A stretch of DNA of 33,174 nucleotides. It comes from Clostridia bacterium. Its GTDB lineage: Bacteria > Bacillota > Clostridia > Oscillospirales > CAG-272. The stretch is from contig JAGBTY010000054.1 of NCBI GenBank assembly GCA_017631085.1, positions 1 to 33,174 on the forward strand. Direction: 5' to 3'. Under the pieces are notes generated by a model. It worked only from the letters and a program-made list of their open reading frames with translations, had not been told where the DNA came from and searched no databases. Of this stretch, positions 725-21,532 are shown one piece after another. Made by a program: the position numbers and the translations under genes. Every line of letters starts with the position of its first letter. Position 1 is the first letter of the stretch.

Positions 725-1498
725 TTAGTAAGGCTTTATTTCTCCGTTGGTTTCAACTACGTCTGCTCCAAATGCGATTGCTTCTGCCATTTCTTCATGT
801 GTGGCAAGTAACCAAACACCAAGGTATCCATGCTCTTTTACCTTTTTTGAAATCTCGTGAGAAACGGGAGGAACCTTGCACCAAGATGTTTCCTCATTAT
901 CAAGTCTCTGCCAGATGTAGAGCTTTTCGCGAGATTCAACGAGAGTGTCGAGAGTAGCAAGCGCATCATCGTCTATAACGCCGTCGTAGTGAATAGTGAT
1001 GCCGGGTACTGCCTCGGCTGCCTTTGCAAGAAATTCTACTTGAGCGCCCGTTATACCTACGTTGGCTTTACTGTGAGCGCGAAGCTGGGCAAAGAGTATT
1101 TCCTGCTGCTCTTCGGGGAAGGTTGCGGCAACACTATCTATTTTTATTGCGATTCCGGTCTTTTCTGACAATTCGAGGACCTCTTCCATTGTAGGTATCT
1201 TTGTTCCCTTGAATTCGGGTGAGAAGCTCTCACCGAAATCGTATTCGTAAAGCTCGGCAAGGGTGAGGTCCTTTACGTAGATGTCCTCCTCGGGTGCTTT
1301 GCCGTCTTTTGTTGCGGTGGCGTTGATCGTGCGGTTGTGGATAAGCACACAAACGTTATCCTTTGTAAACTTTGGGTCAAGCTCGATGATGTCGTATCCT
1401 TGAGTCACCGCAAGCTCGTATGCAGGCATTGTGTTTCCGGGTGCATCCGTGCTGACTCCTCTGTGCGCCTGAAGTCTGCAATTTGAATTCTTGTACAT
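725..1498 (-). CDS. Glycerophosphodiester phosphodiesterase-family protein with altered active site
   Basis: This 257-aa protein is the usual size of a bacterial GDPD TIM-barrel enzyme, a family that hydrolyses glycerophosphodiesters to glycerol-3-phosphate and an alcohol. Family marks seen are AHRG (His12, Arg13), ELD (Glu39, Asp41, metal ligands) and the second catalytic His54 in LIHN. Two positions depart from the family. The usual PENT motif reads PGNT (Gly21), and the usual IEIK strand, which supplies the third metal-binding Glu, reads IKID (Lys119, Asp121). It has no signal peptide, so it is predicted to be cytosolic. It starts 27 bp after sialidase-like gene 1 behind an AAAAAAGGAG site, and no terminator lies between them, so it probably belongs to the same mRNA. 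The substrate may differ from classical glycerophosphodiesters (inference). Confidence 0.85.
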   Translation of the reverse strand: MYKNSNCRLQAHRGVSTDAPGNTMPAYELAVTQGYDIIELDPKFTKDNVCVLIHNRTINATATKDGKAPEEDIYVKDLTLAELYEYDFGESFSPEFKGTKIPTMEEVLELSEKTGIAIKIDSVAATFPEEQQEILFAQLRAHSKANVGITGAQVEFLAKAAEAVPGITIHYDGVIDDDALATLDTLVESREKLYIWQRLDNEETSWCKVPPVSHEISKKVKEHGYLGVWLLATHEEMAEAIAFGADVVETNGEIKPY

Positions 1499-1525: not shown

Positions 1526-4500
1526 TTATTTTTCTCTTATAGCTATAAATCTGTCAAGAGCAAGGCTTGATAGGTCGTTTGTAAATATTCCGACGTAGCT
1601 TACCGCATCAAAACGGCTGTCAAAGTCTATGTCAAAGGATTTGCCGTCAATTGTAAGAGTTGCCTGCTTTTCGGAAGCGTCAAAGGAGATGCATACCTCA
1701 TAGGTTATGTCCTCGGTAAGATACTTTTCAAGATAGATCTTGCCCTTGTCGGGATCGTTATAGAAAATATGACCATCGCCGTCAACACCAAAGCTTATGG
1801 GGGCAGTTTTCGTCTGTTCGTTGTTAAAGGCTGTCTGAAGCTCAACCGAAAATCCTTCGCCTACACAGATGGGAGTAAGGTCGAAGAATATTTTTCCTGC
1901 CTCCATATAGTGAAGAGTTCTCGAAAGCAGAGAATTTTCGCGGACGCGAAGAGCATTCTTTCCGTCGGTAGCGCCGATGGGGGTGATACCCGCTTTTCCG
2001 TAAGATACGAGCCAACCCTCCGAGATATAACCGTCTTCAAATGAGTCGAACGCCCCTTTGGTCTTGCGAAGATAATTGTCAAAATCAACGATATGCATAG
2101 TGTGCATAGAAGATATAACGTAGGACTGTTTTACTCCGTGCTTTTCGTATATAGCCATATCGGGATTCGTATGAAGGGCGTCGCCGTTATATCTGTCTGC
2201 CGTTGCTATTACTGTGGCAAAATCAATACCTACGATATCGCGGAATGTCTCTCCGTCGTCATAGGACAGGGCCATGTTTAGAGGATATCGCTGATACGTC
2301 CTTCCGCCGAGAGAGTTGTTACCCGCCCACATGAGAACGGGTTGACTGTCAAGGGGAGCGATTATCGGTTGAGTGTTTGCGGTGAAAATATTGGAGAAGG
2401 AGTTCTTGCCCACATTCTCCCATGTAACGCCTCTGTCATAGGAATGAGATTTGGCAAAGTGTGTGATCTCGGCTATCTGACAGCGAGCGTAAAGCAGGAG
2501 AGAGCCGTCTTTCTTTTCCCATACCGTTTCCTCGGAGAGTCCGCCTTCGGCAAAATCGTTATCTCCGTCTTCAGCGTTTATGATAGAGTCGCTGAATTGC
2601 CATGTTTTGCCTCCGTCGCGGGAATAGAATCCCGTGGTGGAGAACGCCAAGGTGGCAAGGTCACGCATGACACCTGTGGTAAATACGTAATCTACGTTCG
2701 GTCCGTCACCGTCGGCATCCGAAAGGGTTATACCGTCGGAGTATGAGATAGCGTATTCGGGGGCATTTTCGGGATGAACAGGTCCTGACCATGTATATCC
2801 CGAGTCATTTGACTCAAAGATGTAATATTTGCACATATAGGGGTGCTGAAGTCTGAATTTATAGCAGAGATAAAATACCTTTCCCGCCTTTTTGTCCACA
2901 ATAAAGCCACCGCCTGAGTTTATTCCCGCGGAAACTTCAACTTTTTCAAGCTCCGACCATGTGTGACCGCCGTCTGTTGAACGGCTAATGCCGAAGTATC
3001 CCACACCACCTAACCACATGTCCGCAGTCTTGAGAAGGTCGCCGTTTGGCATTTCGGAGACCGTATCCATCCAGTATCCTGCATCCTTTGTTCGATTCAC
3101 GGCGTAACGCGCACCGTAGGTCATCTCAAAGGTCTCGTTTCCGTCGGATACTGAAAGAGCATTTTCGTTGCCGTAAAGCACTCTTACAGAGATACTTTCA
3201 TTTGCCTCCATATGGGGAATACGGATATAAAACACATCTCTGTGCAGATACATGGGAAGCTGACGGTCACCAAGAATGAAGCGAATGTCCGAAAGGTCGT
3301 CCTTAAGGTCGTTTTTATTTATACCCATGTCCGAAAGGGAGAGGGAGAACACCTCATCTGCTACGTCATTTGTTCTTTTGTTTGTGAGAGTGACCGCTGT
3401 CTCGTGCTTCCATTTTCCAAAGGAGAGCAGAGGAATGTTGGTGTACTCGGCTCTTAACATAAGAGAGGGGTTGCCGCATATCCTGCCTACAGCATCGTAT
3501 GCGTCATTGTGGGTGGAATGTATCTTAAGATAACGTGCATTTACCGAGAAATTGTAGAAATATATGTCCTGTCCGTTTATGAGGAGAGAATAATCCTTGA
3601 TATACTCATAATTTTGGTTGTCGTCACTTGCGTAGAGCGACAGAAAGCTCTTATTGAGCATATTGACTTCTCCGAAAGTGTGAAGCACGGATCTGTTTAT
3701 CTTCGTGATCTTTCCCATATCTGCAATGATGCTGTTTCGAGATGTATCAAGGGCAAAATATACGGGAGGTTTTTTTCCGCTTCCCGTGAAGGGATAAAGG
3801 TCGTTCTCGACGGTAAGCACAGGGGTCGAGAGCTCGTATGCAAGGTTTATTGAGGAGACTTCAATATCGGTGTCGTCTTCGTGACTTGCCGGCGCCACTC
3901 TCGTTCTTAACCACATAAAAACAAGTGAGTTTATACCCAAAAAGCGACGTCTTCTGTGTGTTGCCTCCATCTCGGAAAGAGTGAGACGCTTGTCAACATA
4001 TAGGTCAAGTCCTCCGTCGGCTCTCCATACGGCAGAGATATTCATGGTGTCCCCGATCTTTTTGTCGATAGGAGCGTAGACGACATTCTTTCCGCTGCAG
4101 CATGAAATGAAAAGAGTGAGAGTGGAATCAAGATTCTGTATACCGAAATATATGGCATTTTTCTGCGTGCCTCTGGCAAACGTAGTACTGAAGCCGTAAG
4201 AACCGTCGGGGGAAGAAAAGCAGTAGGAAGAGGAGGGCATGGCGGTTATTTTCAGGTCGAAGGAGCAGTATATGTCACGACCGTCTTCTGCAAACTCCGC
4301 GATGTTTTCCTCTGTTACTATCTCATGGATAAAAGGGAAGTTTGCACCTTCATTCTCGCTGTATCTGTCAAAGAAACGAATAGAGTCCTTGGATACCTTG
4401 ATCCCCGCGTCTGCTGTCGACACGTCAAGATTTGGGTCGGCACAGCTTGAGATAGAGGTCTTTTTAAATACTTCGCCTTCTTTATCCCCTTGTACGAAAA

Positions 4501-4861
4501 ATGTGTTCATTTCGCTGATACGTATTCCGCCTCGGAAGTCCGATACACCTCCCGCGTTTTCTGCCAAAACCGTTATTGGCGCGATATTTTCTTTTTGGGG
4601 CAGTGGAAGTATAAGGGTATCCTTTTCAGTACCGAGACCGAGAAGATAATTTTTCTCGCCGTAGATAACGCTTACCGACGCGTCGTCAGCTCGGTCGATC
4701 ATAAGGGTCAAGGAATCTTCTTCCCATGACGCTCCCACGAATACGAGGGGCGATGATCCGTTCTTTTTCGTCAGAGCCTTTTTTAGCACGAACTCGGAAG
4801 CTGATACGTGTGGGGCAACAATGATATTCTCCGATTCATATGGGAAATTTTTACTGTTCAT
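1526..4861 (-). CDS. Giant multidomain sialidase/BNR-propeller protein 1 (no export signal)
   Basis: This 1111-aa protein has the following layout (rough residues): N-terminal beta domain 1-140, ConA/LamG-like 150-335, discoidin-like 345-470 (SLYASDDNQNYEYIKDYS, then NARYLKIHST), DUF2341-like 485-590 (DIRFILGDRQLPMYL, then VRVLYGNENALS), sialidase/BNR propeller 595-930, and C-terminal beta-sandwich from 936. Asp-boxes include RSTDGGHTW (Trp635), SNDSGYTW, SRDGGKTW, SYDRGVTW and SYDDGETF. Sialidase-like residues are Glu777/Glu778 (SEETVWE), Arg793 (YARCQ) and Arg858 (QRYPLNMALS). The slot for the first triad Arg, just before MPNGD (Met604), reads YWMDTVSE and so has Met. It lacks both the Ig-like domain of its three paralogues and any signal peptide. 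It has its own promoter and leads the operon with the GDPD-like and YccF genes. Hydrolysis of sialic acid is not assured. Confidence 0.88.
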   Translation of the reverse strand: MNSKNFPYESENIIVAPHVSASEFVLKKALTKKNGSSPLVFVGASWEEDSLTLMIDRADDASVSVIYGEKNYLLGLGTEKDTLILPLPQKENIAPITVLAENAGGVSDFRGGIRISEMNTFFVQGDKEGEVFKKTSISSCADPNLDVSTADAGIKVSKDSIRFFDRYSENEGANFPFIHEIVTEENIAEFAEDGRDIYCSFDLKITAMPSSSYCFSSPDGSYGFSTTFARGTQKNAIYFGIQNLDSTLTLFISCCSGKNVVYAPIDKKIGDTMNISAVWRADGGLDLYVDKRLTLSEMEATHRRRRFLGINSLVFMWLRTRVAPASHEDDTDIEVSSINLAYELSTPVLTVENDLYPFTGSGKKPPVYFALDTSRNSIIADMGKITKINRSVLHTFGEVNMLNKSFLSLYASDDNQNYEYIKDYSLLINGQDIYFYNFSVNARYLKIHSTHNDAYDAVGRICGNPSLMLRAEYTNIPLLSFGKWKHETAVTLTNKRTNDVADEVFSLSLSDMGINKNDLKDDLSDIRFILGDRQLPMYLHRDVFYIRIPHMEANESISVRVLYGNENALSVSDGNETFEMTYGARYAVNRTKDAGYWMDTVSEMPNGDLLKTADMWLGGVGYFGISRSTDGGHTWSELEKVEVSAGINSGGGFIVDKKAGKVFYLCYKFRLQHPYMCKYYIFESNDSGYTWSGPVHPENAPEYAISYSDGITLSDADGDGPNVDYVFTTGVMRDLATLAFSTTGFYSRDGGKTWQFSDSIINAEDGDNDFAEGGLSEETVWEKKDGSLLLYARCQIAEITHFAKSHSYDRGVTWENVGKNSFSNIFTANTQPIIAPLDSQPVLMWAGNNSLGGRTYQRYPLNMALSYDDGETFRDIVGIDFATVIATADRYNGDALHTNPDMAIYEKHGVKQSYVISSMHTMHIVDFDNYLRKTKGAFDSFEDGYISEGWLVSYGKAGITPIGATDGKNALRVRENSLLSRTLHYMEAGKIFFDLTPICVGEGFSVELQTAFNNEQTKTAPISFGVDGDGHIFYNDPDKGKIYLEKYLTEDITYEVCISFDASEKQATLTIDGKSFDIDFDSRFDAVSYVGIFTNDLSSLALDRFIAIREK

Positions 4862-4907
4862 AATATTTTTCCTTTCTTACAGAGGCAAAATAAATATCCT
4901 CGGTAAA

Positions 4908-4936
4908 ATTATAGGCTATGAAAAAAGAATAGTCAA
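4908..4936 (-). promoter_or_regulatory. Promoter of sialidase-like gene 1
   Basis: Read on the minus strand, TTGACT (4936-4931) and TATAAT (4913-4908) are separated by exactly 17 bp. The -10 element ends 46 bp before the start codon, and an AAGGAAA ribosome binding site follows. This is one base short of the full sigma-A consensus. Confidence 0.8.
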
Positions 4937-4980
4937 GCCAAAAAACAAAGAATAGATTTTTTTGTAATCGTATTTAAAAA

Positions 4981-4998
4981 TGTCTCCGATGCGGTGAC
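4981..4998 (-). terminator. Possible weak terminator of sialidase-like gene 2
   Basis: A short imperfect hairpin (GTC-CCG at 4982-4988 against CGG-GAC at 4992-4998, one internal mismatch, 3-nt loop) lies just past the stop of gene 2. On the minus strand it is followed by a run of five T. The stem is weak, so read-through into gene 1 is possible. No better candidate exists in the 141-bp gap. Confidence 0.35.
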
Positions 4999-5002
4999 TC
5001 TT

Positions 5003-8000
5003 TTATGTGTTCTTTATCATTATAAACCTGTCAATGGCAATATTCGTGTTATTCCTGCTCCATACGTTTACGAAGCAGACAGCCTCACCCTTTGATGAGA
5101 AGAAGCCAATATGAGCCGTATCACCGTTTACCGTAAGTGAGGCAGAGCCTTTTTCTGCGTCAAATTCTACCAGAATAGTATTGTTGTCCGAAGAAACGGT
5201 AAGTGACGTATTGATCCGAGCGCCTGTTTCGTCATAGGTAAAGACACGTCCGTCTGGGGAGAATCCGAATCTTACGGGGGCTGTGATCCCAAGGTTCTGA
5301 TTGTATGCCGCCTGAAGCTCAAAGTCAGCTCCCGAACCCATGCTGTCAACGAAAAGGTCAAACTCTACCGAACCGCTTCTCGTGTAGGTGACGGGGCGGG
5401 ATATACTTGTCTCCGATGGGAGGATCATCGCGTATTTTCCGTCGGTTGCGCCTACCGTGTCGACGTAAGGGTTACCGCCGATAGCTATCCAGCCCTCGCT
5501 CTCTACCGAGCCGTTTTCAAATGAATCAAAAGCTCCTTTGGTATTGAAAAGATAACGCTTTGCATCTGCTATGCGAAGCTCGTCAAGGGGAATTACCATA
5601 TAAAGATGGTCGGTGTCCTTGTAGTTGTAATATACGAGGTCTGGGTTTACTACGATATTGTGGTTAGCTCCGAGTATCTGCTCGATGGGAGTCTGGAAGG
5701 TTATGTCCTGTGTACCCACGAACGTCTCACAGTCGTCCTCCGAGTATGCAAGATTGAGCGGGAAGCGGTCGTAGCTTGCCCCTCCGATAGAGTTGTTTCC
5801 TCCCCAGAGAAGAACGGGGGTGTCGCCCATGGGAGCGATTATAGGCTGTGTGTTGGGTGTGAATATGTTTGAGAAATGGTGAACGTTTTCGGTCCACGTA
5901 ACACCGTGGTCATAGGAGTAGGCAACGGCAAATCTTATGACCGTCGGATACTGACAGCGCGCATAGAGAATGAGTGTGCCGTCCTTTTTCTCCCAGACCG
6001 TCTCCTCGGAAAGTCCCATCTCAAGTCCGTCGTCGAGAAGATGATAATTTATACACGACTCGCTCTGCTGCCATGTTTTTCCGCCGTCCCTTGAATAAAT
6101 TGCGGTGGTGCAGAATGATTCTGCGGTAAGATTTTTCATCATTCCCGTTGTGAATACGTAGTCCACGTTCGGTCCGTCGCCGTCAAAGCAGGAGAGCTTG
6201 ATAGCATCCGAGTAGGAGATGAGATATTCGCTTTGACCTGTTACTTCAATTGCCTTTTCCCAGGTGTATCCCGAATCACAAGAGGTAAGTATTTTGAGCT
6301 TACACCATTTTTCAGCAAGATTATACTGATGCGCGAAGTAAAATACCTTGTTGTTTTCGCGGTCTACAAGGAAGCCTCCTCCGTCGGAAAAGCCTTCCGT
6401 ACCCTCCACTGTAACGCTTTGAAGCCAGGTGTGGCCTCCGTCGGTAGAGCGCTCGTAGCAGATGCGGTCGTGTCCTACTCCTCCCATGAGGAGAAGAGAG
6501 CCGTCGGGCATCTCTGCCACCGAGTTTCTCCATGCGCCCTTGTGCTTCATTGTGAATTTCGTTCCGTACTGTACCTCAAAGACCTCGTTTCCGTCATAGA
6601 CAGAGAGTGCGTTGGGGTTTTTGAAAAGTATCTCTATCTCTGCTTCCGAACGTGGAGAGATCTCGGGTATTCTGAAAGAAAGCGTTCCCTTTGAGTAATA
6701 TTGAGGGAGATATATATCACCAAGCTTCAGGCGTATATCCGAAAGGTCCTTGCGAAGCTCTTCCGTGTTTATTCCGAGTTCTTCGAGGGTATAGGTGCAT
6801 ATTTTATCCACCTCTGCCGAGTCCGTATCGTTTTTGACGGTAAAGTAAGCCTTTTTTTCAAATGCTCCGTCGGCTCTCAAGGGCATATCGGAGTATTCCG
6901 CAATGAGCATATCCTGAAGTGAGTTTACAAATGAGGACGAGCTGAACGAGTATCTTCTTGCAGTGCTGTGTACCTTTAAAAATCTTGCGTGTATGTCAAA
7001 ATTGTAGAAGAATATCTGGTTTTCGGTCTGAAGCATTGAAAAATCCTTGATGCGTCGGTACTCGAGATCGTCGTCGGAGGCATATATAGAGATAAAGCTC
7101 TTTGACATAAGGTCGATAAGAGGGGAAGCAGAGCAAAGAGTTGCGCGGTTTATGCGTGACACCTCTCCCATATCGTAAATAACGCTGTTTTCGTTCATGT
7201 CGAGAATGAAGCAGGAATCGGAGGTGATACCGCTTCCTACGTAAGGATTCTTGTCATAAGGACGTGAAAGGACCTTTTCGGTCGGTGCTTTTCCCTCTGC
7301 GAAAAAGGTGAACGTTTTGTCAAATACCGAGTATTCTCCTGACATTCCGTGTGCCGTAAGGTGTACGACCTTTCCCGACTGTGCGGGCGAGGTGAAACGA
7401 CCGTCATTTGAAAGGATAGACTCGTCGGAGCTTTCCCATATGAGTGGCATTTCTGTAGAAAGACTGTCATTTTTTATAGAGCTGTCAAGACAAAGCTTTC
7501 CATGAGCTTTATATATTCCGTCAAAGCCTACGTTTTCTGCATCTCCGTTCTTTATAAGGTCAGAGATGTCGAATTTGGAGTAAGACGCGTGGGTATATTC
7601 GTGAGAAACAGTAAAATTGTGCAGAGTTATGTCAAGATCGTCGTCGTGAGATTCAGGCTTATAACGGCAACGTACCCATTTGATCGTCAAGCCCCGTAGC
7701 TTTGCACTTGCCCTTACCATCTTCGGTGTGGGGAAGGACATTATCTCTATGCCGTCAACGAATAGCGCGAGAGTGCTTGACGGTGTCCATTTTGCAGAGA
7801 AATTAAAGGTGTCACCGATCTTTTTGGGTATCTGCGCCTTAAGCGTATACCCTACGTTTACAAAGGCATAGAGTCCGAGGGGGGAATTTTGAAGTCCGAA
7901 ATAAAGGCTGTCGTCACCCTCACCGTATGAAAGGATAAACATCAGTCCGTAGGCGGAGTCTGCCGTGCAGACCGTGTGATAATCCATGGCGGGAAAGCTC

Positions 8001-8632
8001 TTTACGGTCACATCCATATCAAAGGAAACGGGAGAGCCGTTTTCAAAATCCTCAAGAGAGGTGCTCGAGAGTGTTACATTTGTATAAGGATAATTTTCCT
8101 CTCCGTCTCTGTATTTGTCGAAAAATCTTAATGAGCTATTGTTAAATTCGACCCCAAGGTCGAGAGTGGCAACGTCTATGTCCTTGTTTGCCAGCGCGGC
8201 ACGGCTCACGGTTGACAAAAGCTCGTTCTTTCTTTCCTCGTCGAAAACAAAGAAGGGAGAATACTCACAGAGCCTCATAAATCCGCAAAATGAGGACGAA
8301 GCGAGCTTTCCGTCAGCCTTGATGTTGATGGGCAGAAGTATATCTGAGTCACAGAGGGAAAGTCCCGTGTCGATCGCATTCAGTATGAGAGTCGTCTCAT
8401 TTTTTGATGCGGAAACAGTCGTATTATATTTTTCAATATTTACCGTGTAAGAAAGAGCATCATGGGAAATGAGGCTGAGCTTTATCTCATTTGCGTTCCA
8501 AAGAACACCCACCGAGACGGTGGGGGCGTCCTCTGTGTTTTTCTTCAACATGAAGGGAACAAAGCTTGCGGACATATCTTCAGAAAAGTTTGCTCTGATT
8601 ACGGGTTTGTTTTTAGTGTTAAAATAATTCAT
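5003..8632 (-). CDS. Giant multidomain sialidase/BNR-propeller protein 2 (no export signal)
   Basis: This 1209-aa paralogue has rough domains: N-terminal beta domain 1-140, ConA-like 170-350, atypical Ig-like 367-447 (LIWESSDESILSNDGRFTSP), discoidin-like 450-585 (SIYASDDDLEYRRIKDFS), DUF2341-like 590-700, propeller 700-1030, and C-terminal beta-sandwich from 1033. Asp-boxes include RSTDGGHTW (Trp736), SCDSGYTW, SRDGGKTW and SYDHGVTW. A fifth box is degenerate (SEDDCETF, with Cys in place of Gly). It keeps SEETVWE, Arg892 (YARCQ) and Arg956 (DRFPLNLA). It is the only one of the four with an Arg (Arg702, in WRNSVAEMPDG) in the slot of the first triad arginine, so it is the best candidate for a true sialidase-type active site. 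The protein begins MNYFNTKNKP with no signal peptide, and no upstream in-frame start would add one. Predicted location is cytosolic unless export is non-classical. Confidence 0.88.
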   Translation of the reverse strand: MNYFNTKNKPVIRANFSEDMSASFVPFMLKKNTEDAPTVSVGVLWNANEIKLSLISHDALSYTVNIEKYNTTVSASKNETTLILNAIDTGLSLCDSDILLPINIKADGKLASSSFCGFMRLCEYSPFFVFDEERKNELLSTVSRAALANKDIDVATLDLGVEFNNSSLRFFDKYRDGEENYPYTNVTLSSTSLEDFENGSPVSFDMDVTVKSFPAMDYHTVCTADSAYGLMFILSYGEGDDSLYFGLQNSPLGLYAFVNVGYTLKAQIPKKIGDTFNFSAKWTPSSTLALFVDGIEIMSFPTPKMVRASAKLRGLTIKWVRCRYKPESHDDDLDITLHNFTVSHEYTHASYSKFDISDLIKNGDAENVGFDGIYKAHGKLCLDSSIKNDSLSTEMPLIWESSDESILSNDGRFTSPAQSGKVVHLTAHGMSGEYSVFDKTFTFFAEGKAPTEKVLSRPYDKNPYVGSGITSDSCFILDMNENSVIYDMGEVSRINRATLCSASPLIDLMSKSFISIYASDDDLEYRRIKDFSMLQTENQIFFYNFDIHARFLKVHSTARRYSFSSSSFVNSLQDMLIAEYSDMPLRADGAFEKKAYFTVKNDTDSAEVDKICTYTLEELGINTEELRKDLSDIRLKLGDIYLPQYYSKGTLSFRIPEISPRSEAEIEILFKNPNALSVYDGNEVFEVQYGTKFTMKHKGAWRNSVAEMPDGSLLLMGGVGHDRICYERSTDGGHTWLQSVTVEGTEGFSDGGGFLVDRENNKVFYFAHQYNLAEKWCKLKILTSCDSGYTWEKAIEVTGQSEYLISYSDAIKLSCFDGDGPNVDYVFTTGMMKNLTAESFCTTAIYSRDGGKTWQQSESCINYHLLDDGLEMGLSEETVWEKKDGTLILYARCQYPTVIRFAVAYSYDHGVTWTENVHHFSNIFTPNTQPIIAPMGDTPVLLWGGNNSIGGASYDRFPLNLAYSEDDCETFVGTQDITFQTPIEQILGANHNIVVNPDLVYYNYKDTDHLYMVIPLDELRIADAKRYLFNTKGAFDSFENGSVESEGWIAIGGNPYVDTVGATDGKYAMILPSETSISRPVTYTRSGSVEFDLFVDSMGSGADFELQAAYNQNLGITAPVRFGFSPDGRVFTYDETGARINTSLTVSSDNNTILVEFDAEKGSASLTVNGDTAHIGFFSSKGEAVCFVNVWSRNNTNIAIDRFIMIKNT

Positions 8633-8687
8633 TGAAACTTTACCTTTTCAATTCTTTGATTATATTATTGTATTATTAATTTTTTAT

Positions 8688-8716
8688 ATTTTACAGTAAA
8701 TACCTATAAAAGTCAA
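8688..8716 (-). promoter_or_regulatory. Promoter of sialidase-like gene 2
   Basis: On the minus strand, TTGACT (8716-8711) and TAAAAT (8693-8688) are 17 bp apart. The element lies in the 325-bp AT-rich region shared with the divergent gene 3. The leader between -10 and ATG is about 55 nt. Confidence 0.75.
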
Positions 8717-8888
8717 TATAATTTTGATATATTATGAATAAATATAAGTAAATGTCAAGCAAAAATATGGCTTTATCAGATTTTTTTAAAAAATAATATT
8801 ATATGGCAAAAAACACATAAATTTTCTGCTTTAGTACCAAATATCCATTGTTAAAATTGTAACTATCGACGAAAAAGCGACTTTCATA

Positions 8889-8917
8889 TTGACTTTTGAT
8901 GGTAAGTATGATAAAAT
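8889..8917 (+). promoter_or_regulatory. Promoter of sialidase-like gene 3
   Basis: TTGACT (8889-8894) and TAAAAT (8912-8917) have a 17-bp spacer and lie 40 bp before the ATG at 8958. The -10 context TATGATAAAATA is also found at the promoter of the other lipoprotein gene (gene 4), which suggests common origin or shared control. The stretch 8717-8888 is AT-rich and no further element is recognised in it. Confidence 0.78.
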
Positions 8918-8957
8918 AACATACATTGCAAATAAAAAACGAAAGGAATTTTACATT

Positions 8958-11900
8958 ATGAAGAAAAGCTCAATTTTCAGGGTGATATCCCTGGTTCTTG
9001 TTCTTATTATGCTCCTGCTTCAGATGTCTCTTCTTATTTCTTGTAGCAAAGAAGAAGAAGGAAATGATGAAAATCCAGGCAATGGTGCAGGTGATCAAAC
9101 TTCCGATACCGGAGATGATGCAACCGGCGGAAACGAAGGTAATAAGGACGATACGCCCGGTGCTTCGGATATAAACTCGCTTTATTATCTTGACACCATG
9201 GGCAAGCCCGTTGCTCTTGCAAATTTCTGCAAGACTGCAGGTGAGACGGCAGATGCCGCTTACTGTGTTGTTGCATCAGAAACAAATGCAAAGTTTACTC
9301 ACTTGATAGGTTTCCTTTGGAATGCAGAGACACTTACAGTCCTTGTAAAGACCAATAGTGCAGAGTCTGTTACGGCAAAGCTCGGATCATACGAGGCAAA
9401 GCTTGAGGAGATCGATGGAAACGCAATGCTTTCCATTCCCTTTGCTAAGACGGGTATTCTCCCTCAGGACATCGGACAGCTCATTCCCTTGACAGTAACT
9501 ATTGCAGGCGCCAGCGACAGCGCGGTGTTTGACGGTTTTGCAAAGCTTTCCGACCACAAGGTAAGCTTTGTGTCCGACTGTACTGATCTTTCCGCATTTA
9601 ATGTCAAGACAACAGCTAACGGTAAGAATCTTAAAACAACCTCCGCAGGTGTAGAGCTTACCGAGGGCGGAATAAGACTTTATGACCTGTTTGATTCAGG
9701 AAAGGGAGTTGCTAATACCAACAACCTTTTGAGCGTTGATGAAATTTCCGACCTCGATGTAGCTGCAGAGGGATATGATGCTTATGTGCTTGAAGCAGAT
9801 ATTTGCATTAAGGCAATGCCTGAGTTTCCTCTTGGATTTACGTCAAACAAGAGTGCATACGGACTTTACTTTAACGTAAATAAATCGAGCTCTGCAAACT
9901 CACCCTTGTTTGCAATAGTTAATACCGACGGCGGACTTGTAGTCGTTTGTGTCGGTGATACAGCAGACTATTATTCATACGCAAGTATAGGTAAAAACAT
10001 TGGTGATAAGTTCCATCTCTCTGCAACGTGGAGCGGTTCTACTCTTGTTATTGAAGTGGACGGCATTCGTGTTGCTGCCTTTGAAAACTGCGAAGGAAAG
10101 AGAGCAGCTTTCAAGAAGCAGTCCATAAATATCGGTACTCTCAGAAGCGATGCGATTCCTACTGCGGACGATGATATTGACGTAGTATTAAGCTCTATCT
10201 ACTTTGCAGGCGACCAGTCCGAGTCTCTTATCGAAATGGTTACAGATTCTTCCATCTTTGGCGGAAGAACAGTTCCGAAGATAGACGAGTATATCAGGGC
10301 AGCGGCTAAGCCTCAGCTCAAGTTCACAGAGAACGTAACCAGTGAAAAGTACGGTATCAGTGCAAAGATATATTGGATAAGTGATAATACCGAGGTTATT
10401 TCAAATACCGGTGTAGTTACGTCTCCCGCAGGCTCGGGCGAATTCGTACCCGTTACCGCATACATTGCTATGAATAACGTAATAGTAGGCGAAAAGGTAT
10501 TTGAATTCTTCTCTCCCGGATCTAATGCTGATAAGTACGTTACAGTTGTTGAAGGAGAAGAAGATCCTTTCACAGCGGTTAAATTAAGACCTCGTGATAC
10601 TGTATACGCGTTTGATGATGGACAGAACAGCCTTGTATTTGATCTTGGCAAGGTCGATAAAATAAATAAGATAACATTATCAAGCGTTAAGAACATCGGT
10701 CTTATCAATAAGAACTTTATCTCGGTATATTACAGCGACGATAATAAGTCTTATGAAATGATAGACAATTTCTCCGTATACCAGAACGGACACAATGCTT
10801 ACATCTATAACTTTGACGTAAACGCACGTTACATCAAGGTACTTCTTACAGAGGGAAGCTCCTCTAATACCACAAAGACCATAATCAACTCGCTCCAGAA
10901 GATAATATTTGCTGAATACAGTGAAGCACCACTTCTCAGTACAGGCAGCTTCAAGGGAGAGAAGACGGTCAAGGTAGAAAACAACACAAACGAGGTCGTA
11001 TACGACAAGATAGTTGCTCTTACGCTTAAGGATATCGGTATAAACGTTACAGACCTTAAGGAAGACATGTCTGATATCCGCTTCATGCTTGGCGGACTCT
11101 GTCTGCCTCACTACTTTGACGGTGCAAAGTTCAACGTAAGAGTATTTGAGATTGCAGCTAAATCTTCCGTACAGATCAAGGTCCTCTATGGCAACAAGGA
11201 CGCACAGTCTGTTGAAAACGGCGAGGAGACCTTTGAGGTCAAGTACGGAACTATTCAGGCAAAGAGACAGGGATCCGGTTGGCAAAACTCCATTGCGACC
11301 ATGCCTAACGGAGACCTTGTCAAGATTATTCAGCTTTCGTCGAATGAAAAGGTATGCACAAACGAAGGAGCTTCCAAAGCTGACCACGCTCAGCTTGCTC
11401 TTAGCCGTTCCACAAACGGAGGTCTCTCTTGGACGGTTGTAGAGAGACTCCCCGGAACCAGCCACATTCAGCAGGGCGGTGGATTTATCGTAGATGACGG
11501 TGTTCATAGCAGCAACGGTAAGGTTAGAGACGAGAGCGGAGAAGAGAAGGTATTCTACTTTGCTTACGACTTTAATCTCTATCAAGATAGCAAGTGGACT
11601 CACGGCGGTGATAATTCGGGTAAATATTGGTGGTGTAAATATTACATTTACGAGTCAACCGATAACGGAAAAACATGGTCACTTGTTGGTAGTCCCATAA
11701 ATGCTCCCGAGTACGCTATCTCCTATTCCGACGGTATCGTTCTCTCGACTGCCGACGGTGAAGGACCTAACGTGGACTACGTATTTACCACGGGTGCTAT
11801 GAGAGACAAGGATAACAATAAATACACCGACGAAGGATTTAGCACTACCGCTATATATTCCAAGGACGGCGGTAAGACATGGATATTCAGTGACTCGAGG

Positions 11901-12974
11901 ATCAACTATACAGGTTTTGTTGGTGCATCCAACAATATCGAGAACGGAATGTCCGAGGAAGCTGTTTGGGAGCAGGACGACGGAACACTCGTATTCTATG
12001 CTCGTTGCCAGCTCAAAGAGATAATTCATTTCGCTATGTCCTATTCAACAAACGGCGGAGTAACATGGAGCGAAATAGATGACAGTGATTTCTCCAACGT
12101 TTATACAACGAACACACAGCCCATTATAGAGACATTTGACGGTAATCCCATTCTTATGTGGGGTGGAAACCACTCTCTCGGCGGTGCTACTTATCAGAGA
12201 TTCCCTTGGAACCTTGCAATTTCCTATGACGATGCAGAGACATTCGTTGATATTATTAACGGTTCCTTCGGTACTATGATCGATACACTCGATCCTGCCG
12301 TAGGACAAATGCTTCATACAAACCCCGACCTTACGTTCTATACATTTAAAGGAAGAACAGGTCTTTACATGGTATCGCAGGAGTCTCTCCTTGTTCTCAA
12401 TGCAGACGACTTCCTCTACAAGACAAAGGGAGCTTATGATTCCTTTGAGGATACTGCTTTGGCAGAAGGCTGGCAGTTGGTCTACGGTTCTGTAAGCACA
12501 GCAGCTGTAGGAGCTACCCGCGGTGAGAAGGCAATGGTGGTTAACGGTAATACAGCAGTTTCACGTTCACTTCACTACATGGAAAAGGGAACTGTTTCCT
12601 TCGATTATTTCGTTTCCAATCCGGGTCATGTAACACTTGAGCTTCAGACAGCATTTAATAATAAGGCTCTTAATGAAGCAACAAACAAGACTGCTCCTAT
12701 TTCGATCTTCACCGATGAAGAAGGTAATCTTTATTACAACATAAATGGTGGAGCAACATCGGGTACTCTTGAAGGTCTTAAGCTTAAGGCAGGACAAAAC
12801 TCTATTTCCATAGACTTTGACGGAAATACAAAGACTATCAATGTTACTGCAAATGGAAAGACCGCTTCTATGAAGTGGGATGGCAATGACAACTACATAA
12901 GCTACTTTACCGTATTTACAAAGTACGGCGCACAGGCAGCAATTGATGAGTTCAGAGCTGTCAGAGAAAAATAA
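8958..12974 (+). CDS. Giant multidomain sialidase/BNR-propeller lipoprotein 3
   Basis: This 1338-aa surface lipoprotein starts with a hydrophobic signal segment ending in LLISC (lipobox Cys29). Next come an acidic Gly/Asp/Thr-rich linker (30-72), N-terminal beta domain 73-200, ConA-like 205-430, atypical Ig-like 430-540, discoidin-like 545-665, DUF2341-like 670-765, propeller 770-1155 and a C-terminal beta-sandwich from 1158. Asp-box-like repeats are RSTNGGLSW (Trp825), STDNGKTW, SKDGGKTW, STNGGVTW and SYDDAETF. Glu1000/Glu1001, Arg1016 (YARCQ) and Arg1081 (QRFPWNLAIS) match sialidase positions. The first triad arginine slot is Gln (WQNSIATMPNG). The ATG at 8958 was chosen over an upstream TTG because it follows GAAAGGA and starts the signal peptide directly. 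It probably acts on glycans at the outer face of the membrane; the exact substrate is unknown. Confidence 0.9.
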   Translation: MKKSSIFRVISLVLVLIMLLLQMSLLISCSKEEEGNDENPGNGAGDQTSDTGDDATGGNEGNKDDTPGASDINSLYYLDTMGKPVALANFCKTAGETADAAYCVVASETNAKFTHLIGFLWNAETLTVLVKTNSAESVTAKLGSYEAKLEEIDGNAMLSIPFAKTGILPQDIGQLIPLTVTIAGASDSAVFDGFAKLSDHKVSFVSDCTDLSAFNVKTTANGKNLKTTSAGVELTEGGIRLYDLFDSGKGVANTNNLLSVDEISDLDVAAEGYDAYVLEADICIKAMPEFPLGFTSNKSAYGLYFNVNKSSSANSPLFAIVNTDGGLVVVCVGDTADYYSYASIGKNIGDKFHLSATWSGSTLVIEVDGIRVAAFENCEGKRAAFKKQSINIGTLRSDAIPTADDDIDVVLSSIYFAGDQSESLIEMVTDSSIFGGRTVPKIDEYIRAAAKPQLKFTENVTSEKYGISAKIYWISDNTEVISNTGVVTSPAGSGEFVPVTAYIAMNNVIVGEKVFEFFSPGSNADKYVTVVEGEEDPFTAVKLRPRDTVYAFDDGQNSLVFDLGKVDKINKITLSSVKNIGLINKNFISVYYSDDNKSYEMIDNFSVYQNGHNAYIYNFDVNARYIKVLLTEGSSSNTTKTIINSLQKIIFAEYSEAPLLSTGSFKGEKTVKVENNTNEVVYDKIVALTLKDIGINVTDLKEDMSDIRFMLGGLCLPHYFDGAKFNVRVFEIAAKSSVQIKVLYGNKDAQSVENGEETFEVKYGTIQAKRQGSGWQNSIATMPNGDLVKIIQLSSNEKVCTNEGASKADHAQLALSRSTNGGLSWTVVERLPGTSHIQQGGGFIVDDGVHSSNGKVRDESGEEKVFYFAYDFNLYQDSKWTHGGDNSGKYWWCKYYIYESTDNGKTWSLVGSPINAPEYAISYSDGIVLSTADGEGPNVDYVFTTGAMRDKDNNKYTDEGFSTTAIYSKDGGKTWIFSDSRINYTGFVGASNNIENGMSEEAVWEQDDGTLVFYARCQLKEIIHFAMSYSTNGGVTWSEIDDSDFSNVYTTNTQPIIETFDGNPILMWGGNHSLGGATYQRFPWNLAISYDDAETFVDIINGSFGTMIDTLDPAVGQMLHTNPDLTFYTFKGRTGLYMVSQESLLVLNADDFLYKTKGAYDSFEDTALAEGWQLVYGSVSTAAVGATRGEKAMVVNGNTAVSRSLHYMEKGTVSFDYFVSNPGHVTLELQTAFNNKALNEATNKTAPISIFTDEEGNLYYNINGGATSGTLEGLKLKAGQNSISIDFDGNTKTINVTANGKTASMKWDGNDNYISYFTVFTKYGAQAAIDEFRAVREK

Positions 12975-12992
12975 TAACAGTTAATAAATTCA

Positions 12993-13020
12993 ATCGGGAG
13001 CTTCATTTGAAGCTCCCGAT
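12993..13020 (+). terminator. Intrinsic terminator of sialidase-like gene 3
   Basis: ATCGGGAGCTTC (12993-13004) pairs perfectly with 13009-13020 around a 4-nt loop and is followed by ATTTTTG. It lies 18 bp past the stop of gene 3. Confidence 0.88.
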
Positions 13021-13048
13021 ATTTTTGATGGATACCTGCATTAGACTG

Positions 13049-13390
13049 TAGGGACAGGCATCTCGACTGTCTTAATATAAAAATATTAATTTTTATGCAA
13101 ATCGGTTATGTGTCATCCTGAGCGAAGTCGAAGTTTTGGGGAGGCTGTGCCGAGCCAAAACCAAGAGCCGTAGGCTCGCAGGGATCCATTGAGCCTTACC
13201 GAAGGCTTTCGTAATAGAAAGAATATATAAAAAATCGCATAGCGTCCTTGTAGATTCCGACACTCCGTGTCGCCTTCCTTTCGTCAGGTTCGACTACGCA
13301 AACGATTCACAGGATTGTTTGCTCCGCTCAGAATGACACGGGCGGGTGCAACTAGGGATTATCCGATATTTGAGGGGCATCTGTCCCTAC
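13049..13390. repeat. Nested dispersed repeats: GTAGGGACAG inverted pair flanking a MITE-like element
   Basis: The outer layer is GTAGGGACAGGCATC near 13051-13065 and its inverted, slightly diverged partner GGCATCTGTCCCTAC near 13375-13389. The inner layer (13110-13339, about 230 bp) has terminal inverted repeats GTGTCATCCTGAGCG (13110-13124) and CGCTCAGAATGACAC (13325-13339), which match at 14 of 15 positions. The interior is partly palindromic and has no open reading frame of note. From general knowledge, sequences beginning GTCATCCTGAGCG and ending CTCAGAATGACA are widespread non-coding dispersed repeats in several phyla. The nesting suggests that one repeat inserted into another (inference). 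Confidence 0.75.
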
Positions 13391-13496
13391 AAGGTATGAT
13401 AAAATTTGAGCGAGCACATTTGCGAACGGCAAACAGCAATTGCGAGGCTCGGCAGGTATTAAAACCCCCGTTTAGACTATGCCCGAAAATTAAACA

Positions 13497-13548
13497 CCCC
13501 CGTATATTTTACTGTCCGCACAATTTGGGGCAGTTCAATATACGGGGG
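13497..13548. terminator. Large bulged hairpin at the 3' side of sialidase-like gene 4
   Basis: A 12-bp perfect stem, CCCCCGTATATT (13497-13508) with 13537-13548, carries an inner imperfect stem (ACTGTCC at 13511-13517 against GGGGCAGT at 13527-13534). It lies 40 bp past the stop of gene 4. Seen from gene 4 (minus strand) the tail is GTGTTTAATTTT, and on the plus strand it is followed by ATTTATTTTTTATT. It could terminate in both directions. A related ACCCCCG motif just upstream (13463-13469) has no pairing partner of its own. The remaining bases between 13391 and 13496 show nothing recognisable. Confidence 0.65.
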
Positions 13549-13588
13549 GATTTATTTTTTATTGTTTAAAGCTATTTGCTATCGGATA

Positions 13589-16500
13589 TCAGTCTTCCTT
13601 GACTGCGATGAAGCGGTCGATGGAATAGCCTGAAGCGGCTGATGTGAAGACTGTAAAGAAGCTTATGTAGTTGTCCTCACCCATAAGTGCAATGGTCTTG
13701 GACTCGCCGTTTACTGTGATCTTTACAGTGTCTCCTTCACCGTCAAGGTCGAACTTGACCGTGTTATCACCTATCTTGAGCGAGAGACCGAGATATGTTT
13801 TTACTCCCGATTCATTCAGATAGAAGAGAGAGCCGCTTTCATTGACACTCAAAGCGATGGGGGGGAGAATAGGAGGATCGTACTTTTGGTCCGTGCTGGG
13901 TGTGTAGGTTCTCTTGCACTGATCGTTAAATCCTGCCTGAAGCTCAATGTCCATCTCGGCAAACGTGCTGACGTAGAGGTCAAATGAAACGTATCCCTTT
14001 TTGATGGAATGGAGAGAACGGGATATAGCAGAATTGCTGAGGAGTGAAAGTGCCTTCTTACCGTCGGTAGCACCGATCTCGGTGATGGTCGCTCCGCCTC
14101 TTGCAAACTGCCAACCGTCAAATACGACACCTTCTTCGAAGGAGTCAAATGCGCCCTTTGTCTTGTAGAGGAAGTCATCTGCGTTGTATACGTATATCTT
14201 ATGGTATGTTGAGGTTATGTAAACACAGTCAATGCCTTTATATTTGTAGAATACGAGGTCAGGGTTCATGTGAACGCTCGTGGTAGCACCGTCGGGGGTG
14301 GAGGATCTGTTAAGTGTATCAACTTCGGTCTGGAAGGATACGTTTAAGAAGTCATCAAATGTGTCGCCGTCATTGTAGGATACCGCCATATTAAGAGGAT
14401 ATCTTACGTAGGAGCGTCCGCCGAGGGTGTTGTTACCTCCCCAGAGGAATACGGGAGAGCCGTTGAGATCTTCCATAATGGGCTGGGTATTAGATGTATG
14501 GAAGTCTGTGAATCCATCGTGCGTCCATGTTACGCCATGGTCCTTGGATACTGCCTTGAGGAAGCGTGTAATGCCATTGACCTGGCAACGTGCATAGAAT
14601 ACGAGGTCTCCGTCGTCCTGCTCATATACGCAGTCCTCAGAACATCCACCTTCCATGAACGCATTACTTCCGTAGGTTATGAGAGTTTCACTGAAGCTCC
14701 AGGTCTTGCCGCCGTCCTTTGAGTATACCGAGGTAGTATAAAATTCACCTGTCTTGGTATTTGGACAAATTCCTGTGGTGAATACGTAGTCAACGTTAGG
14801 TCCTTCTCCGTCCTCACAGGAGAGTGTAATACCGTCGGAATATGTGATCGCGTAGTCATTGGCATGAGTACCACCGGTAGGATATACGCCGTCAGACCAA
14901 GTGTAACCGCTGTCTGTGGATTCTGCTATAAGGAATTTACATTCCTTAAAAGTTATAACATCATCTTTAGTAGGATCGTCTTTATTTGGGGCTGTTACTT
15001 TAGAATTATTATAATCAAGACCAATATGGAATACCTTGTTGTTCTTGGCGTCAACAATAAATCCACCGCCGACGATGAAACTTCTTGGTACTACTATTTG
15101 TTTTCCGTCTTTGTCAAGACGTGGGTCTCCGTTTTCATCAAGAAGGATATCGTTAGTAACCTTTACGTTGTTAACTGTCTGGAGCGTGCTCCAGGTCATA
15201 CCACCGTCTTTCGAACGGTAATATCTAAGCATATTGCCTCCGGGGAATGCGCTGAGAAGGTCACCGTTGGGCATTTCAGCCATGCTGCACTCCCAACCTC
15301 TTTGAGCATCCTGATACTGCCAACCGTATTTAGTACCGTACTGTACTTCGAAGGTCTCATGACCGTTTGACATGGACTCTGCGTCCTTATTGCCGTAAAG
15401 GACCTTGATCTCTGCAGAGGATCTGGGATCTATCTCGAATACTCTTACAAAGAATGTGTTGTTCATAAGATAATAGGGGAGATAGAGACCATCCTGCATA
15501 AAGCGGATATCCGACATATCGGACTTCAGATCGGAGGCATTTATGTCCATATCTTCAAGTGTGTAGGATACTATGTGGTCGTAAAGCTTTTTATTTGTTG
15601 TGTTGCTTACAGAAAGAGTTTTGTTCTTGCTAAACTCACTATTACTGAGAAGAGGAGCTTCCGAATATTCAGCAAATATTATTTTCTGAAGCGAGTTGAC
15701 GATCTTTCCTGTCTCATCATATCCGTCTCTGTGAGTTGAGTGGACCTTGATATACTGTGCTTCAACGTTAAAGTTGTAGATGTAGACGGTGTTTCCGGTC
15801 TGGAATACAGAGAAGTTATCGATGTATTTAAAGTTTAAGTTGTCGTCGCTGTAATAGACAGAAATGAGGTTTTTGTTTATTGCTCCGATGTTGTAAAGAC
15901 TCTTAAGAGTTACTCTATTTACAGTGGTTACCTTGCCCATATCGTACGTGACGCTGTTCAAGGTCTGGTCGAGAGCAAATATGGAGTCCTGACAGTTACC
16001 TGTCTTACTTGAGAATGGGTTTGTGTCGTTCTTTACTCTGTAGACTTTACTTTCGGGAGCTGCGCCCTTGGAGAAGAACGTAAAGGTCTTTGTGGAAAGA
16101 ACGGACTTGCCACGCATAAGATTTGCAGTCAAAGTAAGGAGTTCACCTGATGCGGCAGGCTTGGTGAATTTACCGTCGCTTGTTAGAATAGCTGCATTAG
16201 AGCTTTCCCAGGTGAAGTCTGCTGTGATTCCGTATTTTTCACTGGTTATAGATTTATTAAGTGTCAGATCCTTTGAAAGCAGATATGCATCGACATCTTC
16301 AAGCTTTACTGCGCTTCCTGCTCCAACAAGATCCTCAATGTCAAGAGAAGCCATGATCGATTCGGAGGTGTCGTAGGAAAGGCAAATAGAATGAATGGAA
16401 ACGTCAATGTTGTCTTCATCGCTCATTGGCGGCAAAGTATTTCTTTGAGTAACGATGCGTATGGAGTTTGAACGAAGGGCTCTTGTTGCAGCCGCATTTT

Positions 16501-17602
16501 CAAATGTTGCAAATTCCTTTCCGTCGATCGCAAGGATCAAGGAGTTATCCTCTGTCCATACAACAGACATATGGAAGGTGTCGCCAAGCTTCTTTCCTAA
16601 TTTTACAGGGAACATCTCGGAGTTTTCGTCACCGTAAAGAATGAACACCAGTTCTCCTCCAACGTTGCTTATGGAGAAGAGGGGAGAGTTTTTGGCTGAA
16701 TCAACTACGAAGTTGAAATAGAGTCCGTATGCCATGTTCTTTGAAACAAAGTCGGGAGAATACCGGGGGAGAGAGTTTACGGTAAGGACTGTTTCGAAGA
16801 TGTAGTTCCTGAATTCGTTAAGGGCTGCTACATTTCTTACTTCAAGAAGGTTCTGGGTAGAAGCCTGACCTTGATGCTGTGCGAATGTATCGTAGAGTCT
16901 GATCGAACCGTCTTTTGCTTCAATACCCGCTACCGATTTCACAGGTGTGATGTCTGCTTTGGTCTCACATTTCGTGAAAGCAGTCAAGTCGTCGCAGGAT
17001 GTTGAGAATACGATCTCGTAATCAGCGAGCTGAACGTATCCGAAAAAGACGTAGGTGTCGTCACCCGCGGTCGCGTTGATTTCAACGGGAACAAGCTGTC
17101 CGATGTCTTTGGGGAGAATGCCCGTGTCGGTGAAGCTTATGTTCTTCATAAAGAGTCCTTCTTCTGCGGAGAAGGAGTTCTTATAAGAGCCAATGTTAAT
17201 AGCGACCGTTTCAAGTCCTTCTACATCAACGAGGACTGAAAGAGTTTCGGCATTCCAAAGGAAGCCTACCGATTCAGCTGTCGCTTTTTCATCCTTGGTC
17301 ATATGATAGAAGGATGGGAGGGAGAGATCGTCTGGAGAGGAGGGAATCTCGGCGGTAAACTTTGCGTTTGCAAGCTGTTTTCCAAGGAAGGGTTCTCCTT
17401 CTTCAGTGCCGTCAGTGCCGTCGGTCGTGCCGTTGTCACCGGTCGTGCCGTTGTCATCGGACGTGCCGTTGTCGCCTGTCGTGTCGTTATTGTTGTCATT
17501 TTCTTCTTCGCTAGCGCAAGAGATAAGAAGAGTTGCCTGAGATAACAACATAATGAGGACAAGTATCATCGACAAAATCGAAATAAATGTTCTTTTTTTC
17601 AT
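13589..17602 (-). CDS. Giant multidomain sialidase/BNR-propeller lipoprotein 4
   Basis: This 1337-aa surface lipoprotein has a signal segment ending LLISC (lipobox Cys29), then a low-complexity Asp/Thr/Gly linker with repeated TTGDNGT-like units (about 34-72). Further domains are N-terminal beta domain to 205, ConA-like 250-420, Ig-like 427-510 (FTWESSNAAILTSDGKFTKP), discoidin-like 525-665, DUF2341-like 665-770, propeller 775-1150 and C-terminal beta-sandwich from 1151. Asp-boxes are RSKDGGMTW (Trp804), STDSGYTW, SKDGGKTW, SKDHGVTW and SYNDGDTF. Arg1005 (YARCQ) and Arg1067 (VRYPLNMAVS) are present. SEETVWE is replaced by SEDCVYE, and the first Arg slot is Glu (WECSMAEMPNG). The first propeller blade has an insert near 815-845. 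It lies divergent to the kinase operon and has its own promoter. Substrate unknown. Confidence 0.9.
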   Translation of the reverse strand: MKKRTFISILSMILVLIMLLSQATLLISCASEEENDNNNDTTGDNGTSDDNGTTGDNGTTDGTDGTEEGEPFLGKQLANAKFTAEIPSSPDDLSLPSFYHMTKDEKATAESVGFLWNAETLSVLVDVEGLETVAINIGSYKNSFSAEEGLFMKNISFTDTGILPKDIGQLVPVEINATAGDDTYVFFGYVQLADYEIVFSTSCDDLTAFTKCETKADITPVKSVAGIEAKDGSIRLYDTFAQHQGQASTQNLLEVRNVAALNEFRNYIFETVLTVNSLPRYSPDFVSKNMAYGLYFNFVVDSAKNSPLFSISNVGGELVFILYGDENSEMFPVKLGKKLGDTFHMSVVWTEDNSLILAIDGKEFATFENAAATRALRSNSIRIVTQRNTLPPMSDEDNIDVSIHSICLSYDTSESIMASLDIEDLVGAGSAVKLEDVDAYLLSKDLTLNKSITSEKYGITADFTWESSNAAILTSDGKFTKPAASGELLTLTANLMRGKSVLSTKTFTFFSKGAAPESKVYRVKNDTNPFSSKTGNCQDSIFALDQTLNSVTYDMGKVTTVNRVTLKSLYNIGAINKNLISVYYSDDNLNFKYIDNFSVFQTGNTVYIYNFNVEAQYIKVHSTHRDGYDETGKIVNSLQKIIFAEYSEAPLLSNSEFSKNKTLSVSNTTNKKLYDHIVSYTLEDMDINASDLKSDMSDIRFMQDGLYLPYYLMNNTFFVRVFEIDPRSSAEIKVLYGNKDAESMSNGHETFEVQYGTKYGWQYQDAQRGWECSMAEMPNGDLLSAFPGGNMLRYYRSKDGGMTWSTLQTVNNVKVTNDILLDENGDPRLDKDGKQIVVPRSFIVGGGFIVDAKNNKVFHIGLDYNNSKVTAPNKDDPTKDDVITFKECKFLIAESTDSGYTWSDGVYPTGGTHANDYAITYSDGITLSCEDGEGPNVDYVFTTGICPNTKTGEFYTTSVYSKDGGKTWSFSETLITYGSNAFMEGGCSEDCVYEQDDGDLVFYARCQVNGITRFLKAVSKDHGVTWTHDGFTDFHTSNTQPIMEDLNGSPVFLWGGNNTLGGRSYVRYPLNMAVSYNDGDTFDDFLNVSFQTEVDTLNRSSTPDGATTSVHMNPDLVFYKYKGIDCVYITSTYHKIYVYNADDFLYKTKGAFDSFEEGVVFDGWQFARGGATITEIGATDGKKALSLLSNSAISRSLHSIKKGYVSFDLYVSTFAEMDIELQAGFNDQCKRTYTPSTDQKYDPPILPPIALSVNESGSLFYLNESGVKTYLGLSLKIGDNTVKFDLDGEGDTVKITVNGESKTIALMGEDNYISFFTVFTSAASGYSIDRFIAVKED

Positions 17603-17827: not shown

Positions 17828-17856
17828 TTGACATTAAAGGAAATGTGTTGTATAAT
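17828..17856 (+). promoter_or_regulatory. Consensus sigma-A promoter of the amino-sugar operon
   Basis: TTGACA (17828-17833) and TATAAT (17851-17856) are separated by exactly 17 bp, a perfect match to the sigma-A consensus. It drives the kinase/amidase/NagB-like/NagA unit. So strong a core promoter suggests that expression is limited by a repressor or post-transcriptionally. The stretch 17672-17827 shows no other clear element. Confidence 0.88.
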
Positions 17857-19224: not shown

Positions 19225-19250
19225 AAAAATAATATAAAAAGAGGTAAAAA

Positions 19251-20522: not shown

Positions 20523-20527
20523 AAGAA

Positions 20528-21454: not shown

Positions 21455-21473
21455 TTCTTATTGAAACTGTAAT

Positions 21474-21503: not shown

Positions 21504-21532
21504 AAAGTTGTAAAATATAATAGGAGAGATTT

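Follow-up and report, generated by a model that had tools for sequence, protein, structure and literature searches.

Can paralogous giant proteins encoded in one genome work on both sides of the cell membrane? The question is raised by four genes, here called g1 to g4, on contig JAGBTY010000054.1 of the Clostridia bacterium assembly GCA_017631085.1 (Oscillospirales, CAG-272), whose 33,174 nucleotides, the whole stretch analysed, are referred to as the window. The original prediction described them as sialidase-like paralogues of the same module order, two with a lipobox and two starting without a signal peptide, and proposed that duplications had split into surface and cytosolic versions or into versions that use another export route. 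The family proves to be larger than these four, and its signal-less members probably represent a branch of an exported family relocated to the cytosol.

Family size and export signals

The four large open reading frames (ORFs) lie where they were predicted and encode 1111-1338 amino acids; their 14,997 coding bases agree with the roughly 15 kb attributed to the family in the window.

1526..4861, minus strand: g1, 1111 amino acids, signal-less member without the immunoglobulin (Ig)-like stretch
5003..8632, minus strand: g2, 1209 amino acids, signal-less member
8958..12974, plus strand: g3, 1338 amino acids, lipoprotein member
8958..9044, plus strand: lipoprotein signal of g3, residues 1-29, hydrophobic leader ending in LLISC with Cys29
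13589..17602, minus strand: g4, 1337 amino acids, lipoprotein member
17516..17602, minus strand: lipoprotein signal of g4, residues 1-29, hydrophobic leader ending in LLISC with Cys29

Visual inspection and a hydropathy rule, rather than a signal-peptide program, served to assess the leaders, and LLISC with Cys29 was read as a lipoprotein signal by the lipobox pattern. On this basis the predicted division holds: g3 and g4 have a type II signal with the lipobox Cys, which g1 and g2 lack. For g3 we take as start the ATG at 8958, which is preceded by a ribosome-binding-like sequence; the mechanical ORF opens at a TTG at 8889, 69 bases upstream. Identity to g1 is 38% for g2, 38% for g3 and 37% for g4, and g3 matches g4 with E=0, which places paralogy far above chance. 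In the alignment the homology spans the whole length of the proteins, with g1 lacking the Ig-like stretch.

The family of four was an incomplete count. The 57 contigs of the organism's assembly (1.59 Mb, 88% complete) yield 13 matches, which resolve into 11 family genes, comprising five signal-less members, four lipoproteins and two members with Sec signals; the hydropathy rule agrees, finding a leader in six of the eleven and none in five. C2b and C44 carry the same type of lipobox signal as g3 and g4. The members outside the window are the following.

C2a: 1216 amino acids, no signal
C2b: 1345 amino acids, lipoprotein, LLISC
C2c: 1248 amino acids, or 1230 from an inner ATG, no signal
C44: 1309 amino acids, lipoprotein, LIAC
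C56: 1231 amino acids, no signal
C57: 2112 amino acids, Sec signal
C32: 1448 amino acids, Sec signal, C-terminal membrane anchor by eye

The five signal-less genes occupy five places on three contigs (two on C2, two on C3, one on C56), and an in-frame stop lies 4-8 codons upstream of each. In g1 and g2 the ATG precedes the anchor position of the first domain by about 9 and about 6 residues, with no leader between; the in-frame stop is 5 codons upstream in both, and stops occur upstream in all three frames. A purine-rich, ribosome-binding-like sequence precedes four of the signal-less starts as well as the inner ATG of C2c. Both window genes are also preceded by promoter-like sites, which rank directly behind the best in a scan that returned 48 sites against 30 expected by chance.

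4908..4936, minus strand: promoter-like site of g1, TTGACT-17-TATAAT (11/12), 46 bases to the ATG
8731..8758, minus strand: promoter-like site of g2, TTGACA-16-CATAAT (11/12)

C56 starts 19 bases after mnmA and may be transcribed from the mnmA operon.

Ancestry of the signal-less members

In a 29-row tree of the core region, built without the fragment L034, a single clade (100/100) takes in every member but C32, ten of eleven, and C32 falls elsewhere, with L031. C56, C2a and C2c group together (92/97); g1, g2, g3 and C57 are poorly resolved. The full-length tree, covering 17 of the 30 rows at hand, unites the exported g3, g4, C2b, C44 and C57 (97/98) and again C56, C2a and C2c (88/83), and places the five signal-less rows on one side of a weakly supported branch (64/56). 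The minimum number of changes in signal state is one, and the four lipoproteins alone as a clade are not rejected (p 0.447). The ten-member clade and the exported group support the predicted split by duplications, which would be old; on the signal-less side the branching is compatible with a single loss of the signal, at weak support. Between the signal-less C2a and C2c, differences at codon positions 1, 2 and 3 amount to 0.37, 0.30 and 0.59, a pattern indicative of purifying selection.

Amino acid composition

Residence in the cytosol is expected to have shifted the composition of the signal-less proteins by selection. A within-genome amino acid discriminant was trained on 393,830 bases with 268 ORFs of at least 150 amino acids, among which hydropathy rules assigned 158 to a cytosolic type and 25 to an exported type; five of the 25 were dropped by eye and 20 kept. 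Its leave-one-out area under the curve is 0.94 (92% and 75% correct). Scores are 0.98-2.51 for the signal-less members, 4.93-6.55 for the lipoproteins, 6.11 for C57 and 4.56 for C32. The true labeling is the most extreme of the 126 ways to choose five out of nine, on full sequences as on 1007 gap-free columns, and the groups remain apart when Cys, Arg or both are removed. The five signal-less members are shifted from their exported paralogues towards a cytosolic make-up, and do not reach the cytosolic level. Cysteine alone ranges from 1.03-1.68% in the signal-less group against 0.41-1.06% (rank 2/126; 3/126 on gap-free columns); according to PMC12453122, the proteins that obligate anaerobes export tend to be kept free of cysteine. 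GC content was considered as a cause of the score shift and discarded: g4 with 45.2% GC scores 4.9, and C2a with 42.7% scores 1.0.

Modules diverge unevenly. Propeller identity is 52.6% in signal-less pairs against 52.2% in lipoprotein pairs, and in all five remaining modules signal-less pairs resemble each other less (rank 5/126, in a test devised post hoc). Equal propellers and looser accessory modules might reflect a lessened need to bind glycans outside while the propeller continues to serve, which is a weak indication.

Competing explanations

An assembly or start-calling error, with the real signals lying further upstream, was the refuting case named with the original prediction. Relatives elsewhere do have leaders (46 of 50), and in one relative, L187, the leader is split across two frames; here, however, the leader is missing at five distinct loci, an in-frame stop stands 4-8 codons before every one of these starts, all three frames before g1 and g2 contain stops, and 46 bases separate the g1 promoter-like site from its ATG. 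This explanation is nearly refuted. We give equally little credence to the signal-less genes being decaying, functionless copies: the lower similarity of their accessory modules and the module missing from g1 would suit decay, but all five frames are intact over 1111-1248 codons, C2a and C2c show the codon pattern of purifying selection, and propeller conservation equals that of the lipoproteins.

Two further readings concern the location of the signal-less proteins. They might build up in the cytosol and be freed by lysis, for instance of the sporulation mother cell, in analogy to NanH of Clostridium perfringens, which has no signal peptide, accumulates inside and is released by mother-cell lysis, as described in PMC8092135. 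A Spo0A C-terminal domain is encoded in this genome and the five still score above zero in composition, as exported proteins do, but no small acid-soluble spore protein (PF00269) was found in the 88% complete genome and the five have drifted in composition from their exported paralogues; we consider such release unlikely. Exit by an unrecognised, signal-independent route would account for a module order equal to that of the exported paralogues and for large accessory modules that are expected outside. Against it stand the compositional shift, the absence of any extra N- or C-terminal element in the signal-less forms relative to the lipoproteins, and the lack of WXG100 (PF06013) matches in the 88% complete genome, a search that addressed type VII secretion and not type I or phage-tail-like routes. 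Such a route is quite improbable, and the within-genome composition leans to the cytosol.

Relocation of the five to the cytosol is therefore the explanation we favour, with fair but not high confidence. Several observations weigh against it. Clade support for the five is 64/56, and if the signal was lost once they are not independent. The discriminant puts all five above zero, with the exported type, and beyond the 95th percentile of the cytosolic type (0.36). Core-region scores of 18 exported relatives from other genomes (1.4-7.1) overlap those of the signal-less members (0.9-3.6), so that the discriminant is valid at best inside this genome. The cysteine ranges touch (g1 1.03, g4 1.06) and the cysteine content of exported relatives overlaps as well. 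Large accessory modules, moreover, have no obvious cytosolic use.

The window thus holds four of eleven members of a lineage-expanded family of giants that combine discoidin and other accessory modules with a sialidase-type propeller of altered pocket. Its ancestor was probably exported by Sec, and the family multiplied in this species; one branch, of four lipoproteins and one Sec-secreted member, is exported, and the five others have shed their signal and most likely act in the cytosol. We infer that surface forms may capture or cut a complex glycan outside, and that signal-less forms may apply the same propeller pocket to imported fragments or to the cell's own intracellular glycans. With the same modules exported and not exported in one genome, the family offers a natural experiment in bacterial protein re-targeting. 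Should the five prove cytosolic, one would have to ask which role such giant glycan-binding proteins play within a cell, and the effect of export on amino acid make-up could be measured on them.

Module architecture and the propeller pocket

The modules of the window genes, placed by Pfam and alignment, are listed below; the Ig-like stretch and the N-terminal domain rest on alignment, and the boundary of the latter was chosen by us.

2057..3073, minus strand: g1 Asp-box beta-propeller, GH33-like
5537..6532, minus strand: g2 Asp-box beta-propeller, GH33-like
11280..12428, plus strand: g3 Asp-box beta-propeller, GH33-like
14156..15295, minus strand: g4 Asp-box beta-propeller, GH33-like
3095..3436 (g1, minus strand), 6545-6886 (g2), 10926-11267 (g3), 15317-15658 (g4): DUF2341 module
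3440..3796 (g1, minus strand), 6890-7249 (g2), 10563-10922 (g3), 15662-16021 (g4): discoidin (F5/8 type C) module
10245..10562 (g3, plus strand), 7250-7567 (g2), 16022-16339 (g4): Ig-like (aBig_2-like) stretch, absent from g1
4508..4837, minus strand: g1 N-terminal domain; the ORF opens about 9 residues earlier

The common module order claimed for all four is found in g2, g3 and g4, and g1 departs from it by lacking the Ig-like stretch. BNR_2 exceeds the Pfam cut-off in all four proteins and DUF2341 in g1, g3 and g4 (below it in g2). Discoidin passes it in g3 and g4, falls short in g1 and is unlisted for g2, where it was placed by alignment; aBig_2 stays below the cut-off in g2, g3 and g4. The N-terminal domain and two laminin-G-like modules were recognised by eye, and no Pfam model matches them in g1-g4; the former may be CBM9-like. 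NCBIfam gives no usable name for the four proteins.

Profile search places the Asp-box propeller with GH33 (PDB 4fj6, E 6.4e-16), as in the exo-sialidases 4fj6 and 1eur. Unlike in those enzymes, the first Arg of the triad (FRIP) is replaced: an invariant Trp (g1 W597) stands opposite it in the Sialidase26 profile alignment in 9/9 rows. The general-acid (acid/base) Asp column holds Asp in 4/9 rows (g1, C2a, C2c, C56) and in none of the four lipoproteins. Glu777, Arg793, Asn829 and Arg858 are invariant in 23/23 aligned rows; their matching to the remainder of the triad is a reading of motif spacing rather than of structure. Glu777 is a candidate for the Glu of the Tyr-Glu nucleophile pair, whose Tyr region lies outside the GH33 alignments. 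No sialic-acid lyase is found at the cut-off in this genome, and sialic-acid catabolism was set aside as a context, the lone nanA-like gene scoring 123.8 bits against a cut-off of 382. Because of the Trp, the partial Asp column and the missing lyase, we do not call these proteins sialidases; the predicted name appears apt for the fold and not for an activity, and automatic 'exo-alpha-sialidase' labels for the family become doubtful. Since the propeller keeps Glu, Arg and Asn without the full sialic-acid set, its substrate is probably no ordinary sialoside.

Relatives in other genomes

The family is sparsely distributed. Counting this genome, it occurs in 1/30 genomes of the genus and 1/98 relatives (single-protein query), and in 2/394 of the order and 2/391 of the class, where at most two candidates were scored per genome, so that weak members may be overlooked. 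A single-protein scan of named genomes gave no relative; an alignment-based scan did, with 79 loci, of which 19 are strong (L029-L047, E of at most 7e-57) and 60 weak (E of at least 4e-10), the latter mostly propeller matches. The assemblies with strong loci bear the titles Clostridia, Oscillospiraceae, Ruminococcaceae or Ruminococcus, and several of the titles give goat cecum or roe deer colon as the source. A search of viral contigs returned no relative. Nine genomes picked for a strong match hold 1, 2, 1, 1, 14, 3, 8, 13 and 13 matches, some of them gene pieces, and the family has therefore expanded more than once. In G102 (L151-L153) nine matches lie close together on contig C27 and three on C47.

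The ends of the proteins vary by lineage. G102 members with a complete 3' end finish in a C-terminal membrane segment and basic tail, most members read from G104-G106 have SLH-like ends, and those of G103 and G370 are dockerin-like, the SLH and dockerin ends being recognised by eye. Among 50 unique ORFs (loci L029-L047, L151-L170 and L187), 46 begin with a signal-like leader, three lack their 5' part, and in L187 no leader is in frame; no clearly signal-less relative outside this genome is seen among the assessable ORFs. Upstream of L187, at about 440-560, leader-like sequence is split over two frames, so that either the signal is now being lost or the sequence has an error.

Taken further, these ends suggest one giant glycan-binding payload, repeatedly expanded in Clostridia-type genomes and re-addressed by end swaps (SLH-like, C-terminal anchor, dockerin-like, lipobox, none). 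The unaddressed five would here be a cytosolic set adapting to the cytosol with the propeller pocket kept, which would make the family a bacterial counterpart of the expanded trypanosome trans-sialidases that has an internal branch as well. We hold this wider picture tentatively, at slightly less than an even chance.

Neighbourhood

725..1498, minus strand: GDPD-family phosphodiesterase, 27 base pairs downstream of g1 on the same strand
17828-17856: promoter-like site (12/12) before the FGGY kinase row
17941-22654: FGGY kinase, ceramidase-like, NagB-like and NagA-like genes in a row, divergent from g4

The genes g2, g1 and GDPD share one direction, and we infer co-transcription of g1 with GDPD. 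The row beyond g4 hints at amino-sugar use; its NagB-like and NagA-like proteins are below the equivalog cut-offs. A 12-pair inverted repeat with a T-rich tail at 12993-13020, downstream of g3, is a likely terminator. Between g3 and g4 lies a dispersed repeat (13089-13372), for which a 561-base query matches the genome 18 times including itself; several copies are at contig ends, and the repeat therefore probably broke the assembly. Rfam gives nothing above thresholds anywhere in the window. At L016:8581-14982, an ORF of 2133 amino acids with an exported-type start matches Ribosomal_L27A in its last ~70 residues (47.9 bits), which may reflect a gene fusion, a join made in assembly, or chance.

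Comparison with known systems

A literature search linking DUF2341 with sialidase returned no paper. Judged from titles and the beginnings of abstracts, neither of the papers matched for rumen, sialidases and S-layers deals with this family, and no bacterial relocalization of such kind was recognised among the matches listed; those listed for family expansion concern trypanosome and gut sialidases or unrelated topics.

In C. perfringens, NanI and NanJ are secreted and NanH is cytoplasmic and lacks a signal peptide, according to PMC8092135. As there, exported and signal-less proteins of the sialidase fold are here encoded in one organism. NanH is a lone catalytic domain, whereas the five signal-less members keep accessory modules and have a changed active site. 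Two intracellular sialidases are reported for Bifidobacterium longum subsp. infantis in PMC4747158. The likeness would lie in intracellular proteins of the sialidase fold, there in a gut bacterium. Those enzymes act on imported milk oligosaccharides; the present genome, in contrast, has no sialic-acid lyase at the cut-off. The trans-sialidases of Trypanosoma cruzi form a large expanded surface family in which most genes encode proteins without enzyme activity, as PMC5020489 describes. They resemble the present family in the big expansion of a sialidase fold, and differ in belonging to an unrelated organism with other anchors. That family is not known to have a signal-less branch.

The coexistence of exported and signal-less forms is known in kind because of NanH beside NanI and NanJ and of B. 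longum subsp. infantis. The present family is a larger version of this known situation, from which it differs by the number of its members, the accessory modules they have kept, their altered pocket and their interchangeable ends.

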